Assembly (NCBI GenBank): GCA_039196715.1
Contig: JBCCUP010000017.1
Location: 1-64,000 of the forward strand
DNA length: 64,000 nucleotides
Direction of reading: 5' to 3'
Source of the DNA: Pseudomonadota bacterium
Lineage (GTDB): Bacteria > Pseudomonadota > Gammaproteobacteria > CALCKW01
Part shown: in pieces, positions 23,220-31,853 of the stretch
Layout of the letters: every line of letters starts with the position of its first letter
How positions within the stretch are numbered: position 1 is the first letter of the stretch
Position numbers and translations under genes: made by a program
The notes under the pieces: model-generated
What the model saw: the letters and a program-made list of their open reading frames with translations, nothing else
Told to the model about the DNA's origin: nothing
Databases searched by the model: none

Positions 23220-24128
23220 ATGGCGACAACCCCTTGTGTGGTGTTTTTTGCCGACCTCGCCGACAGCGTGCATTTATACGACACGGTCGGCGATGCCACC
23301 GCGCGCGAACACGTACAAGCGGTGCAACGGCTACTCGGCGAGCGCATCGCCGCTTTCGATGGCAACGTGCACCAGATCGTCGGCGATGAGCTCATGGTGT
23401 GTTTCGCAGACGCTGATCGCGCGCTCGCGTGCTCGGTGGCGTTGCACCACGACGCGCAACAATACAGCCATGCACATGGCGCAAGGCTGCAACTGCGAAT
23501 CGGCATGCACTACGGCGAGGTCATCACCGACACCACGGAAAACCGACTCTTTGGCGACACCGTCAACCTTGCCTCCCGCGTCAACGGCATCGCCCAGGCT
23601 GAGCAGACCATCCTCACCGAAGCGCTGCTGCAACGTGCGTCGCCAACCTGGCTGACCAGCGTGCGGCAGTTCGATGAGACGCGCGTGAAAGGCAAGACGG
23701 AGTTGCTCAAGGTGTTCGACCTGCCCTGGCAAACCGAGGAACTGACGACCATCGTCACCGCCCGGACGGACGTCCCGCAGCCCGTAGACGGCCACCGCTT
23801 GATGCTGCACTACCGGGGGCGTGACCACGATCTCAGTGGCCTGATCGGCGCCTTTTCTATCGGGCGGGCACTGACCAACGACCTCGTGGTCACGGCCGAG
23901 TCAGTGTCACGCCGCCATGTGACGATCGAACGCGTGCGAGACCATTTCGTGCTCAGTGACAAGAGCACCAACGGCACCCACTTGCTCACCCACGAGGGCA
24001 ATACGATGTACCTTCGGCGCGAGCAATGGCCGATGTCGGGCCACGGCAGTCTTGCGCTCGGCGCGCCGCCAGACCAAAACGCCGACCACACCCTTCGCTT
24101 TCACTGCGGCGTCATGGAACCGAGCTGA
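23220..24128 (+). CDS. Adenylate/guanylate cyclase fused to a C-terminal FHA domain
   Basis: A 302-residue soluble protein. Residues 5-165 are a class III cyclase domain with both metal aspartates (Asp12 in FADLADS, Asp56 in GDE), the KGK lysine region (157-159) and the NLASR transition-state Asn116/Arg120, so it should be active. Residues 195-290 form an FHA domain with GR (215-216), SRRH (230-233) and STNGTH (249-254), the phosphothreonine-binding set. FHA domains dock on phosphothreonine made by Ser/Thr kinases, and such a kinase is encoded convergently 30 bases away. It likely makes cAMP or cGMP in response to kinase output; nucleotide choice is not fixed by sequence. Confidence 0.9.
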   Translation: MATTPCVVFFADLADSVHLYDTVGDATAREHVQAVQRLLGERIAAFDGNVHQIVGDELMVCFADADRALACSVALHHDAQQYSHAHGARLQLRIGMHYGEVITDTTENRLFGDTVNLASRVNGIAQAEQTILTEALLQRASPTWLTSVRQFDETRVKGKTELLKVFDLPWQTEELTTIVTARTDVPQPVDGHRLMLHYRGRDHDLSGLIGAFSIGRALTNDLVVTAESVSRRHVTIERVRDHFVLSDKSTNGTHLLTHEGNTMYLRREQWPMSGHGSLALGAPPDQNADHTLRFHCGVMEPS

Positions 24129-24158
24129 ACACGGTGCCGCGCGCTCGGGTGTGCCCAT

Positions 24159-27100
24159 TCAGCGACCACAGACACTGAGCTCGCGCGCGTCGCCGAGGTA
24201 TTGGAGACGCCGAGTGGCATCGAAGCCTGGCAGTCCGATGACGCAGGCCCGGTGGGGGTCCATCACGTCCCAGAGCTGCACTGTGCCGTCGTCACCGGCG
24301 GTTGCCACGCGCGTGCCGTCGGCGTGCACCTGCAGCCGCCAGATCGCCCGACGGTGCGCCTTGATCGGCGACGCCAGGCGGCGCGCGGTTTCGAGGTCCC
24401 ACCAGTGCAAGTGGCCCTTGCGGTCCGTTGCGACCAGCGTCACGCCGTCAGCGAGAAACCCGACATTGGTCGCGCCACCAGCATGACCGGTCAGGCGCGC
24501 GATGCGCTCACCGGTTTCGGTTGCGTAGAGCGACACGATCTCGTCACCAGACGCCGCCGCCAATACCGCGTTGTCCGCGCTGAGCGCAACGCTCCAGACC
24601 GTATCGCGTCCGCCCGAGAGCGCCAGCAGCGTCTCCCGCGTACCGAGGTCGATCAGCGTGAGGTTGCCCACCGCGTCGCTGACCGCGAGACGGCGTCGAT
24701 CGTGCGAAATCGCCAAGCGGGTCAGTTGGGCCGCCGTCCGAAACACCGGCGTGCGCCACTGCCGCTCGCTGACGGCGTACTCGTGGACACCGCTGTCCGA
24801 CCCGATCAGCAAGCTTGTGCCTGCAGCGTCAAACGCCAGCGACCAGATGGATTCACCTTCGACCGTGGTTTCGTCGAGCAGCTGACCGGTGATCGCGTCC
24901 CACAAGCGAATCCGACCGTGGCGGTCTCCTGAGGCCAACACCGCCTCACCGGGGTCAAAGGCCAGTGCCCAGACCCCCGCCATGTGACCGCGCAGTTGCA
25001 GCGGGCGGTCTGCGGCCTCGGTGCGCCGAAGCTGCACCAGACCGGACTTGTCCGCAGCCGCCAGGAATCGCCCACTGGGACTCACGCTGACACCCCGGGC
25101 GGCGGACGTGGCAACCGCCCAGCTGCGAGACAACGGAAACCGTTCGTCCAGTGTCCAGAACCGCACGAGTTGATCGCGGCCCAAGGTGACTAGCAGCCCG
25201 CCGTCGGCGCTGAGTGAACTGGCCACCATGGTCTGCGAATGGCCTGGCGGCGACTGGCGCTGCAGCTCGCCTGTCCCGATCGACCACTGATTCAGGCGCC
25301 CCGCCCCATCCCCGCCGATCAGGCGCTCTCCGTCGGGGTGAAAAAACAACACGCCGAGACGGCCGCTGAAATCAAAGCGTGCGTCGTCGAGCTCTCCACC
25401 GGGAAACGCGTGCACGTGGGCAAAACCGTCCGTGTCGACAACAGCGAAGGCCGTACCGTCGACGTTGAAGGAGATGTCGACCAAATGGTTGGCGTCAGAG
25501 GCGTCTATCGGCCCAAGCACACGCTCGCCAGATTCGATCGCGTACGCCGTGATCCGCTTGTCAGCGTTGCCGGTGACGACGTAGCGCCCGTCCGAACTGA
25601 TCCCGACGGCATTGAAGCCGTAGTCGGACCGCACAATGGGTGGCGGATGTTCCGTGCGCCCATCAAGGAAAAACCGTTGCACAGTCCCGTCGTCGTTGGC
25701 CGTGATCACCGAATGCCCGTCGGGCATAAAATCCACGTCGACGATCACATCGCGGCTTCGGGCGACCAACACCGAGCGCCAGACTCCCGCGCTGTTCGCG
25801 CGCCACAGCCGCACGCCGCCATCGGTGCTCACCGACACCAGAGCGCGGCCGTCTGGACTGAAGGCGATGTCCCGCACACCGCCGCTGTGGTCCCGCTGCC
25901 TGGCCTGAATCGGTTTTCGGTTGGCGGTGTTGATCAAGTCGACGCTGCCGTCGACCAACCCCAACGCAAGCATGGAACCCTGGGGGTTGAGCGCAACACT
26001 CAATGCGTCACTTGCAACCAGGGGCCCACCGAACAGGAAAGGCCCGCCCTGTGCCAGGGCGTGCCGCGCACTCACCATCGCGGCCCGCGTATCGTAGGGC
26101 GTGGCGCCCGCATGTGCGCGTGCAGTGGACTCCGCTGCAAGCACAAGTGAGAGTCTGGGGTCTTCTTCGACATGTCCGTACGCTGCTGCACCGAGCGCGC
26201 TGGCAAACCGCGTTTCCGCCGCCAGCGTTGCCGCATCGGCCCGCTGGGCCTGGCGCTGCGAGTTGCGGAAGGCCGTGTAGGCGATCAGCGTTGACACACT
26301 GGCGCCCAGGGCCAACACGGTCAGCGCGGCGACCGCCAGCCGTCGCACGCGGCGTCCACGCGCCACCTGCGCCGCCTCTGCCGTCGCTCGCGCCTCACTC
26401 TCGGCCTGTGAGGTGTCGAGGAAATCCTGTTCCAGCGGGTTCAACAGACCTGGGTTCTGGGTTTGCCACTCAATCGCAGCCTGCAATGGCGTTCCGCGGT
26501 ACAGCAGATCGGCGTCGCGCCGCTCCCCTTCCCAATCCTGCGCAGCGCGCGAAATCTTGTGTCGCACCCGCAAGTCGTCACGTGACTCCTCGATCCAGCG
26601 GTGCAACCGCGGCCAACTGTGCAACAAGGCCTCGTGTGCGATCTGCACGGTATCGTCGTCAATGCTGAGCAGCCGGGCGTCGGTCAGCACCCGGATCACC
26701 GAGGCATCAATCGACTCGGCGACGTCAGCGCTACGGAGTTCAGCGCGCGACACGACACGGCGCGTGTCCGGCGAAGCGCTGGTGCCGGCCGCGACCAGCC
26801 GCAACATCAATCGTCGGGTTTGCTCGCGACCCGTGTCGTCCAGTTGGTGCTCGTACGAGGCGTCGGCCGTCTGGCTGATCGCCCCGACCACCCCGCCAGC
26901 AGCCTGAAATCCGGCCAGGGTGAGGGTGTTGCCCTCACGCCGAACCCACGTTTCGACCAAGGCGTGAGCCACCAACGGCAGGGCGCCTGCCTCGTCACCG
27001 GCCTGCTCCAGGATCGCGTCAATCAGACCGTTTTCGAGGAAATACCCCGACCGGCGGGCAGGTTCCGAGATGGCTTGCCTGAGCTCGCTCTCTCTCATCG

Positions 27101-28556
27101 GCGAGACCAACACCTGGTTGTTCGAGATGCGGTGGGCCAGCCAGGGCTCTCGCGCGCACTCGGCATAGAAGTCGGCTCGCACCACGATGACAAGCTTGTC
27201 TTCGCTGTCGAGGCGGTTGGCATAGGTGGCCAGGGCATCGAGAAAGGCTGTTCGTGCCGCAGGTTCGGCCAGGGTGAAGAGCTCCTCGAACTGGTCAATC
27301 ACCACCAGACGTGCCGGCCCGCCTGCCTCCGACGCCGTCAACGCCGACTGCAGGCGCGCCAGCGGCTCTGCGCCAGGCGTGAGCAACCGGACCCGCCACG
27401 CTTCGCTGCCGGGCAGGCTGCCCGAGGCCAGGGCAGGCAACAACCCCGCCCGCACCAACGACGACTTGCCGCTGCCGGACGCCCCGCCGACGACCAACAC
27501 CGCGTGCAATTGCAGTCGCCCGAGCAGTTCGTCCACGAGCGCTTCACGGCCACAAAAGCGTTCGGCATCCTCGGCCTGGTACGCCGCCAACCCCTTGTAG
27601 GGACACACCTCGGTGGCTGTGGCATCGCCGCCCGGCGCGATAACCACCGTGCGACCAGCGTTGCCAACCACGTCGTGAATCGCCCATCTCCACGTGTCCA
27701 TGCTGTCGAATCGGTGCGCCGGCTCGCGGGCAAGGCCGACCGACAAAATGGTGCGCCACGGCGCGGGCAGTGTCGCCAGCGCCTCGTCAAGACGGTCGGG
27801 CAGCGGCGGCGGACTGCCGGTCGCGACATTCCACACCACTGCAGACGCTGCGTAGATGTCCGCTGCTGGCGAAATCACGGCAGTCGGGTCGAGCTGCTCG
27901 GGCGCGAGATAAAGTGGCGTGCCACCGAGCAGGGTTGGCTGTTCGTTGCCGGCGTTGACATCCTTGGCGATCCCGAGGTCACCAACCAGCGGTCGCTCGT
28001 CCGCTCGCACGATCGGCCCGCCCCGCGGCAACGGCTGACCGACACCCTCCTGCGTGGAGCGGCGCACGCTTTCAAAGAACACGTTGCCGGGCTTGATATC
28101 CCGGTGCACGAGGCCAACCGCGTGGATTGCGGACAACCCCTCGGCCAGGGCGTCAACCAGCAGTAGCAGGGCTTGCAATTCAGCGTACGCGCCGTCGACG
28201 GCTGCACCGTTCGGACGCGACGGGTTTTCAGCGGTCAAGGTGGCCAGAGGGATCGGGTGCGGCAATCGCTCGGCGAGTGAACCTCGGTCCGCGTAGTCGA
28301 GCACGAAGTACGGCCGTGCATCATTGAGCCGGCCGATGTCGTGCACGGTCACCACGTTGGGCGCTTTGACACGGCGGAGCAAGCGCGCCTCGTTGAGAAA
28401 GCGCCGCTCGGTGTCCGTATCGGTCACGTTGAGAATCTTCAGCGCCACCGACGACTGGAGTTCCTCATCCCACGCGAGTGCCACCGTGGCAAAACTGCCG
28501 CGGCCAATCTCTTCCCTGAGTTGGTATCGGCCCACGTAGGCGGGCAACGCCTGCAC
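24159..28556 (-). CDS. Giant membrane Ser/Thr kinase - STAND NTPase - WD40 protein
   Basis: A 1465-residue protein from a GTG start. Order: Hanks-type kinase (about 8-295) with GRGSF loop, Lys40, Glu56, HRDIKPGN (151-158), DLG in place of DFG (193-195) and APE (218-220), so probably active; a STAND-type NTPase (about 318-720) with CGRE, Walker A GASGSGKSS (358-366) and Walker B VVIDQFEE; one TM helix (738-760); then about a dozen WD40-like repeats to the C-terminus. The repeats would lie on the far side of the membrane from the kinase or on the same side depending on topology. It resembles kinase-nSTAND1-WD40 regulators of developmental and conflict systems. It is preceded by a small exported protein 26 bases upstream and converges on the FHA cyclase. 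Confidence 0.9.
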   Translation of the reverse strand: MQALPAYVGRYQLREEIGRGSFATVALAWDEELQSSVALKILNVTDTDTERRFLNEARLLRRVKAPNVVTVHDIGRLNDARPYFVLDYADRGSLAERLPHPIPLATLTAENPSRPNGAAVDGAYAELQALLLLVDALAEGLSAIHAVGLVHRDIKPGNVFFESVRRSTQEGVGQPLPRGGPIVRADERPLVGDLGIAKDVNAGNEQPTLLGGTPLYLAPEQLDPTAVISPAADIYAASAVVWNVATGSPPPLPDRLDEALATLPAPWRTILSVGLAREPAHRFDSMDTWRWAIHDVVGNAGRTVVIAPGGDATATEVCPYKGLAAYQAEDAERFCGREALVDELLGRLQLHAVLVVGGASGSGKSSLVRAGLLPALASGSLPGSEAWRVRLLTPGAEPLARLQSALTASEAGGPARLVVIDQFEELFTLAEPAARTAFLDALATYANRLDSEDKLVIVVRADFYAECAREPWLAHRISNNQVLVSPMRESELRQAISEPARRSGYFLENGLIDAILEQAGDEAGALPLVAHALVETWVRREGNTLTLAGFQAAGGVVGAISQTADASYEHQLDDTGREQTRRLMLRLVAAGTSASPDTRRVVSRAELRSADVAESIDASVIRVLTDARLLSIDDDTVQIAHEALLHSWPRLHRWIEESRDDLRVRHKISRAAQDWEGERRDADLLYRGTPLQAAIEWQTQNPGLLNPLEQDFLDTSQAESEARATAEAAQVARGRRVRRLAVAALTVLALGASVSTLIAYTAFRNSQRQAQRADAATLAAETRFASALGAAAYGHVEEDPRLSLVLAAESTARAHAGATPYDTRAAMVSARHALAQGGPFLFGGPLVASDALSVALNPQGSMLALGLVDGSVDLINTANRKPIQARQRDHSGGVRDIAFSPDGRALVSVSTDGGVRLWRANSAGVWRSVLVARSRDVIVDVDFMPDGHSVITANDDGTVQRFFLDGRTEHPPPIVRSDYGFNAVGISSDGRYVVTGNADKRITAYAIESGERVLGPIDASDANHLVDISFNVDGTAFAVVDTDGFAHVHAFPGGELDDARFDFSGRLGVLFFHPDGERLIGGDGAGRLNQWSIGTGELQRQSPPGHSQTMVASSLSADGGLLVTLGRDQLVRFWTLDERFPLSRSWAVATSAARGVSVSPSGRFLAAADKSGLVQLRRTEAADRPLQLRGHMAGVWALAFDPGEAVLASGDRHGRIRLWDAITGQLLDETTVEGESIWSLAFDAAGTSLLIGSDSGVHEYAVSERQWRTPVFRTAAQLTRLAISHDRRRLAVSDAVGNLTLIDLGTRETLLALSGGRDTVWSVALSADNAVLAAASGDEIVSLYATETGERIARLTGHAGGATNVGFLADGVTLVATDRKGHLHWWDLETARRLASPIKAHRRAIWRLQVHADGTRVATAGDDGTVQLWDVMDPHRACVIGLPGFDATRRLQYLGDARELSVCGR

Positions 28557-28582
28557 GGTCCCGTGCCTACCGGTGTGGTCCG

Positions 28583-29029
28583 TCAGTTGAGCTGTTGACT
28601 GACATCCATGCAGTCAAACAACGCCGCATCGAGCACGTTGTGGTCGCGGTCTGCGGCGGTCACGCACAATGTCGTCGCCCCCTCCCGCACGGTTGTCGAC
28701 GCTGCACCGGTGGTCAGGTAGAGCGGGTAGTCGTCATGCCTGTGCCACTTGCCTTGTTCGACGCTGTGTTCACTCGACGCATTGCGCCCGACCTGTCGAA
28801 CGTCGTATTGCTCGCCCCACCACATGTGAAAGTGATTGCGCGAATTGTCGGGAGTGAAATTGGATGCCAAGGTCACGCGCAGTTCATCGCCATCCCGATC
28901 AACCGCGGAGATGGTGACGATACACCCGTCGACCGGGCAACTGTTCGGCATGTCTGCCGCCTTGGCAGATGCCAGACCAGCGACACCTAAAAAACAGGCC
29001 AGAGCTGTCTTGTTTATGATGCTGCGCAC
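28583..29029 (-). CDS. Small exported cysteine-containing protein of unknown function
   Basis: About 148 residues from a GTG at 29029 that begins a signal peptide (hydrophobic about 8-24, AKA cleavage); an upstream frame up to 29101 exists but would bury the signal. The mature part has four cysteines (CPVDGC near the N-terminus, LCVTAAD and FDCMD near the end) fit for two disulphides, and alternating strands. No family recognised. It ends 26 bases before the kinase-NTPase-WD40 gene, same direction, so it may be an external ligand or partner of that protein. Confidence 0.55.
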   Translation of the reverse strand: MRSIINKTALACFLGVAGLASAKAADMPNSCPVDGCIVTISAVDRDGDELRVTLASNFTPDNSRNHFHMWWGEQYDVRQVGRNASSEHSVEQGKWHRHDDYPLYLTTGAASTTVREGATTLCVTAADRDHNVLDAALFDCMDVSQQLN

Positions 29030-30298: not shown

Positions 30299-30907
30299 TC
30301 AGCGCTCCGACAATGCCAGCTTGGCCCCCAGTGCGACAAAGGCACCCGCGAAGACACGTTGGACCCGTTGCAGCACACGGGGAGACGCCGCGACCAGCTG
30401 CCGCACCTGCCCGGCCAACACCCCGTAGCCAACGAAGACAATGAACGTCATCAACATGAAGACAGCGCTCAACAACAGCATGACGCCCACTGCGTTCGCT
30501 GACGCTGTGGGCACGAACTGGGGCAGGAAGGCGAGAAAAAAGATCGAGAGTTTGGGGTTCAGGATGTTGATCAGCAAACCCCGTGATGCAATGCGGAACA
30601 ACGCTTGTTGTTGCGTTTTGCGAAACTCGATCGCGCCGGATTCGCGCCACATCCTGTACGCGAGGTAGCCGAGATACGCGACCCCGATTGCCTTGAAGAC
30701 CTGAAACGCCAACGCACTGGTGTGCAGAATCGCCGCAACACCGAACACGCTGGCACACAGGTGCGGAACGATACCCAGCGTGCAACCGAGCGCCGCCGCC
30801 ACACTGGCGCGTGCACCCTGAGACAAGCCGATGGACACGGTGTAGATCACGCCAGTACCAGGCAGCAGCACCACGATCAACGAGGTGATCAGAAACTCGA
30901 AGGTCAT
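30299..30907 (-). CDS. LysE/RhtB-family amino-acid exporter
   Basis: A 202-residue six-TM protein with the family signature: PGTGVIYTVSIGLSQGARAS near the N-terminus, GVAYLGYLAYRMWRES in the middle, and NPKLSIFFLAFLPQFV. It would export an amino acid or homoserine-like metabolite. Upstream partner of the P-loop kinase-like gene. Confidence 0.88.
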   Translation of the reverse strand: MTFEFLITSLIVVLLPGTGVIYTVSIGLSQGARASVAAALGCTLGIVPHLCASVFGVAAILHTSALAFQVFKAIGVAYLGYLAYRMWRESGAIEFRKTQQQALFRIASRGLLINILNPKLSIFFLAFLPQFVPTASANAVGVMLLLSAVFMLMTFIVFVGYGVLAGQVRQLVAASPRVLQRVQRVFAGAFVALGAKLALSER

Positions 30908-30956
30908 ATCATGGGGTCTCCGTGTGTTCCTGGCCGACTCGGTACGCGCGATGCGC

Positions 30957-31853
30957 TCAGGACGACACGCCGTTCAGCTTACCGACAAACTCGACCAGGT
31001 GCGGCACGTAGTCCTCGGGCCCGTCGCCGCCGTTGGCCACAGCGAGCGCATAGGTGTTCTTGACGGCGTTGCCGACCGGGTTGTTCAAGCCCACGCTGTC
31101 GGCCATCGACTCGAGGTAGCGCATGTCCTTGAAGGCGTTGGTCAGCGTGAACTTGTGGCTCTCGCGGTTGCCCTCGATCACGCAGCCCATGAAGGTCTGG
31201 TAGAAACCCGAGTCCATGCGGCCACCGCGGATCACGCTGTCGAAGGTCTCGGGCGAGATGCCGACCTTCTGCCCGAGTGTGAGCGCCTCGGCGAAGAGCG
31301 CGCCATAGCCCATGGCGAGGAAGTTGTTCAGCAGCTTCATCCGGTGCCCGTCGCCCACTGCGCCGATGTGCACCACGCTTTTGGCCCACGCGGCGAGCAC
31401 CGGCTCGACCCGCGCGAAGACCGCGTCCTCAGCACCAACCATGGCGCCCAGTTCGCCTGCCGCGGCCTGTTGGGGTGTACCCGCCAGGGGGGCGTCAACC
31501 AGGTCCACACCGTGCGTGCCGGTCAGGCCCGCCAGTTTGGCCGTCGACACCGGGTCCGAGGTTGAACAGTCGACAATCACGCTGCCGGACGCCAAACCCT
31601 CGAGCAGTTCGCCGACAATCGCCTCGACTTGCGGCGAGCCGGGCGCACAGATGTGCACGACGTCGCTCGCCTCGGCGAGTGCCCTGAGAGTGGTCACTTC
31701 AACTGCACCTCGGGCCACGAGGTCCTCGACCGGCGCACGGTTGCGGTGCGCGATCACGGTGAGCGGGTAACCCGCCTTGAGCAGGTTGCTGGCGATGCCG
31801 TGGCCCATGAAGCCAAGGCCGACGAAACCGATGCGGGGGGAGGTGTCTGTCAC
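30957..31853 (-). CDS. Beta-hydroxyacid dehydrogenase (3-hydroxyisobutyrate dehydrogenase family)
   Basis: A 298-residue NAD(P)-dependent enzyme: Rossmann motif GLGFMGHGIASNL (12-24), a DAPLAGTPQQA segment for substrate binding (120-130) and the catalytic Lys173 in MKLLNNF. It could oxidise 3-hydroxyisobutyrate, reduce tartronate semialdehyde or similar. It follows the TetR gene by 35 bases in the same direction. Confidence 0.88.
   Translation of the reverse strand: MTDTSPRIGFVGLGFMGHGIASNLLKAGYPLTVIAHRNRAPVEDLVARGAVEVTTLRALAEASDVVHICAPGSPQVEAIVGELLEGLASGSVIVDCSTSDPVSTAKLAGLTGTHGVDLVDAPLAGTPQQAAAGELGAMVGAEDAVFARVEPVLAAWAKSVVHIGAVGDGHRMKLLNNFLAMGYGALFAEALTLGQKVGISPETFDSVIRGGRMDSGFYQTFMGCVIEGNRESHKFTLTNAFKDMRYLESMADSVGLNNPVGNAVKNTYALAVANGGDGPEDYVPHLVEFVGKLNGVSS

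Follow-up and report, generated by a model that had tools for sequence, protein, structure and literature searches.

A rare gene neighbourhood joins a transmembrane kinase-nSTAND1-WD40 protein, an FHA-cyclase and a secreted partner in a candidate bacterial signalling module

The window, a stretch of 64,000 nucleotides, covers positions 1 to 64,000 of contig JBCCUP010000017.1 in a gammaproteobacterial genome assembly (GCA_039196715.1; 4.95 Mb in 169 contigs). Three genes in it code for a class III nucleotide cyclase fused to an FHA domain, a Hanks-type kinase joined to an nSTAND1 NTPase, a transmembrane (TM) segment and WD40 repeats, and a small exported protein. All three are present where a first-pass annotation, made from the sequence alone, had placed them, as judged from open reading frames and Pfam matches. 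The cyclase-FHA and kinase genes converge, and the 30 bp that the annotation gave between their stop codons is exact. The exported protein gene ends 26 bp before the kinase start on the same (-) strand. The genes are:

23220..24128, + strand: cyclase-FHA gene, 302 amino acids, convergent with the kinase gene (Pfam PF00211 and PF00498; 62% identical gene in genome G002)
24159..28556, - strand: Hanks kinase-nSTAND1-TM-WD40 gene, 1465 amino acids (Pfam; orthologues in G002, G343 and 14 named contigs)
28583..29029, - strand: exported Ig/FN3-like protein, first gene of the pair with the kinase (sequence, homologue alignment and structural model)

The annotation had proposed looking for co-occurrence of the kinase and cyclase-FHA genes across genomes. 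A genome-contig scan with the cyclase protein as query returned no relatives, and an alignment of the exported protein was used instead. Scanning 84,980 species genomes with this query gave 15 contigs (L095-L109), a lower bound because the scan matches exact degenerate peptide patterns. The exported protein gene is followed directly, on the same strand, by a kinase-nSTAND1-TM-WD40 gene in 14 of the 15, L108 being the exception. These 14 contigs belong to Gammaproteobacteria, one alphaproteobacterium and Desulfobacterales. The exported protein, which the annotation had set beside the kinase, is a fixed member of the module. A gene with both FHA and cyclase domains adjoins the pair in 10 of the 10 contigs where it is visible; with the window and G002 this makes 12 loci in three classes. 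No locus with both flanks visible is without such a gene. Contigs L098, L101, L103 and L107 each run into a contig end on one side or both and are uninformative on the cyclase. L098 is almost a copy of L096, and L107 of L109; both L096 and L109 have the FHA-cyclase. The kinase-STAND-WD40 and cyclase-FHA genes thus form a conserved neighbourhood, and not the unconserved one that would have spoken against the annotation. The three-gene module is rare. That the genes are chance neighbours with no functional link is scarcely credible. The convergent orientation in the window is all that speaks for it, and linkage conserved at 12 loci in three classes, with differing orders and architectures, refutes it.

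The same linkage is found within the genus. In G002 the 62% identical cyclase-FHA gene converges with a STAND-WD40 orthologue (69%), which the contig end truncates. Two other congeners, G001 and G003, encode neither the cyclase-FHA nor the kinase-STAND protein, so the two genes come and go together in the genus. Every genome of the genus encodes two or three other FHA proteins, G001 and G003 three each. G343 (contig L097), a more distant genome belonging to a different family of the class, carries the complete set of three in the order and orientation of the window. A flank gene tried as a synteny marker is absent from the congeners. The LysE/dehydrogenase pair at 30302-31853 in the window flanks the module from the other side in G002 (L078), which shows local rearrangement of the module region there; in G001 (L113) the pair stands without the module.

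The cyclase partner differs between lineages. It is a cyclase-FHA protein encoded convergently downstream of the pair in L095, L096, L097, L099 and L105, and divergently upstream of it in L106 (Geminicoccaceae). The Desulfobacterales contigs L100, L102, L104 and L109 code for a protein with the FHA domain first and the cyclase second, a reversed order that Pfam confirms, from a codirectional gene close upstream of the pair. The cyclase tree groups the window, G002, L095 and L099 in a clade (100/97) that lies inside a wider gammaproteobacterial cyclase-FHA family. L105 and L106 are placed elsewhere with weak support, and the Desulfobacterales proteins sit on a very long separate branch. The kinase tree puts the six Desulfobacterales kinases in a single clade (100/99) that nests among the other kinases. 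On the simplest reading, an FHA-cyclase stayed with the kinase pair throughout but was itself replaced or rebuilt along the way. The evidence for a functional link between kinase and FHA-cyclase is strongest here. The annotation had called a kinase-to-FHA-cyclase wiring no textbook pathway, and repeated re-pairing with different FHA-cyclase architectures supports that wiring better than the annotation could.

The FHA domain might instead read phosphothreonine on a different protein or kinase, with the cyclase merely co-located with the kinase-STAND gene. The window genome codes for four FHA proteins, that of the module included, and three Hanks kinases, two of them outside the module, and members of the wider cyclase-FHA family are paired with kinases of different architecture. 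Against this stand the tight one-to-one linkage across lineages despite exchange of the cyclase type, and the appearance and disappearance of cyclase-FHA with the module kinase within the genus, making a different FHA target very improbable. The same genome also has six class III cyclase matches beyond the module cyclase.

Pfam places a kinase domain (Pkinase, 1.6e-28, residues 11-250), nSTAND1 (PF20703, 1.1e-114, residues 319-682) and many WD40 repeats (about residues 851-1431) on the 1465-residue protein. Its features are:

27807..28526, - strand: protein kinase domain with K40, HRD153, D193LG, APE and activation-loop T208/T213 (Pfam and motif alignment)
26511..27602, - strand: nSTAND1 NTPase with Walker A GASGSGKS (K364) and Walker B VVIDQFEE (Pfam and motif alignment)
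26175..26438, - strand: predicted continuous 88-residue helix (residues 707-794) through the TM segment (AlphaFold2 model m174a379b7682; predicted local distance difference test score, pLDDT, about 67-94 over the helix)
26283..26339, - strand: TM segment (about residues 740-758) with an Arg-rich N-terminal flank (hydropathy and flanking charge, all 16 sequences)
24264..26006, - strand: WD40 propellers of about 13-14 blades, predicted periplasmic (Pfam WD40, AlphaFold2 strands and topology)
24168..24245, - strand: C-terminal C1438 and C1463, invariant (16/16 orthologues)

The G-loop, VAIK Lys, HRD, DFG/DLG and APE motifs of Hanks kinases are retained in the window and in the 14 orthologues whose kinase domain is complete, the G-loop varying slightly. 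The NTPase has the PF20703 match, and GxSGSGKS and DQFEE are found in 14 of 14 orthologues. The only strong hydrophobic segment is that at about residues 740-758; a weaker second window at residue 129 falls within the kinase fold. In the AlphaFold2 model of the C-terminal half (mean pLDDT 89) the long helix runs through the membrane span and is followed by the WD40 blades. As the sole strong hydrophobic span has an Arg-rich N-terminal flank, the protein is predicted to cross the membrane once, N-in and C-out, with the kinase-NTPase half in the cytoplasm and the WD40 repeats in the periplasm. C1438 and C1463 likely form a disulfide on the periplasmic side.

On the 302-residue protein Pfam finds a PF00211 cyclase domain (1.6e-12, residues 6-163) and a PF00498 FHA domain (1.8e-9, residues 213-255):

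23235..23708, + strand: class III cyclase catalytic domain with metal-binding D12 and D56, transition-state N116 and R120, and Q52 and R109 at the purine-specifying sites (Pfam and motif alignment)
23856..23984, + strand: FHA domain with the phosphothreonine-binding motifs GR (215-216), SRRH (230-233) and NG (251-252) (Pfam and motif alignment)

The metal Asp pair and the transition-state Asn and Arg are retained in every module cyclase readable in full. The purine-specifying Lys and Asp of canonical adenylyl cyclases are replaced in the window by Q52 and R109. Among 37 aligned family members the Lys is present in 32 and the Asp in 33. The pair reads Q/R in the window and G002 and E/R in L095 and L099, and the sister proteins L038 and L039 likewise have E and R. 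The annotation described the class III cyclase as intact, which holds for the metal and transition-state residues and not for the two purine-specifying ones. With both of these non-canonical (Q or E, and R), the product cannot be named from sequence, and the cyclic AMP or cyclic GMP that the annotation suggested is unsupported. The FHA domain of the window protein has the GR, SxxH and NG motifs, as do 37 of 37 family members. Both the kinase and the FHA domain keep intact the motifs that phosphothreonine docking would need.

The exported protein starts with GTG at 29029 and begins with a textbook signal peptide, judged by eye, reading MRSIINKTALACFLGVAGLASAKA followed by AD:

28958..29029, - strand: predicted signal peptide of the exported protein (direct sequence reading; homologue N-termini are also hydrophobic)

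The mature protein has four cysteines, all invariant in 14 homologues, and the family carries an NHFH(M/V)WW motif. The annotation's small exported cysteine-rich protein is indeed exported with invariant cysteines, "cysteine-rich" being a little strong for four. The structural model (overall mean pLDDT 84) has a confident beta-rich domain over the mature part. A fold search returned weak FN3/Ig-like matches, none at E <= 0.001, and because the matches are only weak we claim no fold family. The homologue on the short contig L108 (G128; L089 1015-1491, - strand), which lacks the kinase, is lipoprotein-like and lies beside glycine-betaine-type (osmolyte) transporter genes. A protein on the same contig reads like a TIR domain.

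We propose, with a probability of about 0.6, that the three genes make up one signalling module of a TM receptor kinase, an FHA-cyclase recruited by phosphothreonine and a dedicated periplasmic Ig-like partner. Comparative genomics gives the gene set, the intact motifs and the predicted topology; ligand binding, oligomerisation, phosphorylation, docking and cyclase activation, the biochemical wiring, we infer from these. Oligomerisation is the switch in STAND proteins, and the working form of class III cyclases is a dimer. The exported Ig-like protein would be the periplasmic partner of the WD40 propellers, either their ligand or a subunit that binds it. Once the WD40 side is occupied, nSTAND1 would change state, probably through oligomerisation as in other STAND proteins, and bring the kinase domains together for trans-autophosphorylation, perhaps on activation-loop T208. 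Phosphothreonine on the kinase would then dock the FHA domain of the cyclase, which would cluster and switch on cyclic nucleotide synthesis. The module would thus probably turn a signal from outside the cell into a cyclic nucleotide by an undescribed pathway. A bolder version, in which the secreted protein activates the receptor, phosphothreonine-FHA docking turns on a cyclase that makes something other than plain cyclic AMP, and the cyclase was replaced at least twice under the same receptor, is a tentative proposal, a little likelier to fail in some part than to hold throughout.

Several observations weigh against the proposed module. All loci beyond the window come from metagenome-assembled genomes; adjacency on one contig is independent of binning. 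The activation-loop Thr, conserved among the other kinase orthologues, is absent at that position in L106. In the divergent partners L096, L105 and L106 the Asn of the FHA NG motif is Ser, so docking could be altered there. Genes for Crp-like cyclic-nucleotide-binding proteins, a possible downstream effector, lie within a few kb of the module in L095 (73-408, - strand) and L099 (6910-7992, - strand); with only these two loci they are too few to claim as a linked effector.

The FHA-cyclase could also be an upstream or negative partner, docking holding it inactive at the membrane or its product feeding back on the kinase. Comparative genomics shows linkage and neither its sign nor its direction, and the convergent orientation and separate promoters in most loci would allow independent expression. 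The codirectional FHA-cyclase genes close upstream of the pair in the Desulfobacterales suggest co-expression, however, and Pfam finds no recognised nucleotide-binding sensor domain in the kinase protein. We consider an upstream or negative role rather unlikely.

The annotation also raised a defence function. If the genes formed an anti-phage module of STAND or Pycsar type, the kinase would sense infection and the cyclase would make a pyrimidine or other cyclic nucleotide that shuts down the cell. The available passages of PMC8195603 and PMC7159879 place nSTAND1 and kinase domains in conflict systems, nSTAND1 being named in PMC8195603, and they list kinases, FHA domains and cyclic nucleotide monophosphate cyclases as effectors. 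The best defence-library matches of the cyclase are PycC models (5.8e-9), its purine-specifying residues are replaced, and the distribution is patchy (15 loci in 84,980 species genomes). However, the sensor half is predicted to be periplasmic with a secreted partner, most loci lack an adjacent cyclic-nucleotide effector, PADLOC finds no defence genes among nine window neighbours, and homologues of the exported protein were not found among phage or plasmid records. The neighbours are ordinary metabolic genes; GC content at third codon positions is high at the three genes like at these neighbours, though somewhat lower. The genes themselves give generic kinase or weak PycC similarity. An anti-phage role is distinctly unlikely, and the defence-island reading was rejected as the main explanation on the defence-library, PADLOC and phage and plasmid searches.

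The proposed signalling module resembles several known systems in part. Like PycC, the module cyclase has a class III fold, and canonical adenylyl cyclase substrate residues are missing in the window protein; unlike PycC, which it matches weakly, it is fused to an FHA domain, and no Pycsar effector gene is adjacent. As far as the available passages of the two conflict-system papers go, those systems likewise combine STAND NTPases with exchangeable effector domains. Their effectors replace each other, whereas the module keeps kinase and FHA-cyclase together as two proteins, has a TM segment that separates NTPase from WD40 and includes a secreted partner; these passages do not describe the set of kinase, FHA-cyclase and secreted partner. 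Precedent for kinase-FHA coupling comes from the threonine phosphorylation pathway of type VI secretion, with the PpkA kinase, Fha1 and PppA (PMC5995506). There too a membrane Hanks kinase and an FHA protein are encoded together and phosphothreonine docking is the switch. The module differs in having a nucleotide cyclase as output in place of a secretion machine and in the nSTAND1 and WD40 parts of its kinase; no PP2C gene is present in the module loci and no type VI secretion genes were seen among the neighbours. PP2C was accordingly rejected as a fourth member, being absent from all module loci including the window.

Receptor guanylyl cyclases turn an outside signal into a cyclic nucleotide across one membrane span. 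They offer a functional analogy; in the module, receptor and cyclase are separate and presumably joined by phosphothreonine-FHA docking.

We also examined the wider cyclase-FHA family. Of the 369 genomes of the class that were sampled, 89 encode a homologue, a few weaker matches being partial. At 21 of 40 loci a Ser/Thr kinase lies within 5 kb of cyclase-FHA, where the number of kinases per genome would predict 1.0; this excess beyond the module itself also favours the proposed signalling module. A kinase is defined in this count by homology to the window kinase, and the P value is too small because some loci share ancestry. These kinases have other architectures (kinase-FGE, HEAT-kinase and kinase with repeats), and a PP2C gene is near cyclase-FHA in 15 of the 40 loci. 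In L045-L066 and others cyclase-FHA often stands beside a kinase-FGE giant and a PP2C gene, likely a kinase/phosphatase/cyclase set outside the window-type module. In L041, L047, L062 and L070 a HEAT-repeat kinase adjoins two PilT/PilU-like ATPases and the cyclase-FHA gene, which hints at a connection with type IV pili.

A search of open-licence papers with narrow query terms found no description of the three-gene module. Its components are each of a known kind; what appears to be new is the way they are combined, including the dedicated secreted partner and the FHA-cyclase that can be exchanged. If the proposed pathway is true, one docking domain joins Ser/Thr phosphorylation and cyclic nucleotides, bacterial signalling currencies usually treated apart. 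The system is small, with signal, receptor and output each separately testable, and a receptor that stays constant while the cyclase architecture changes would be a natural experiment on how FHA adaptors rewire an output. Roughly one in four of the class genomes sampled has a cyclase-FHA gene, and a kinase and PP2C are often its neighbours, which suggests that kinase-to-cyclase wiring could be common and overlooked.

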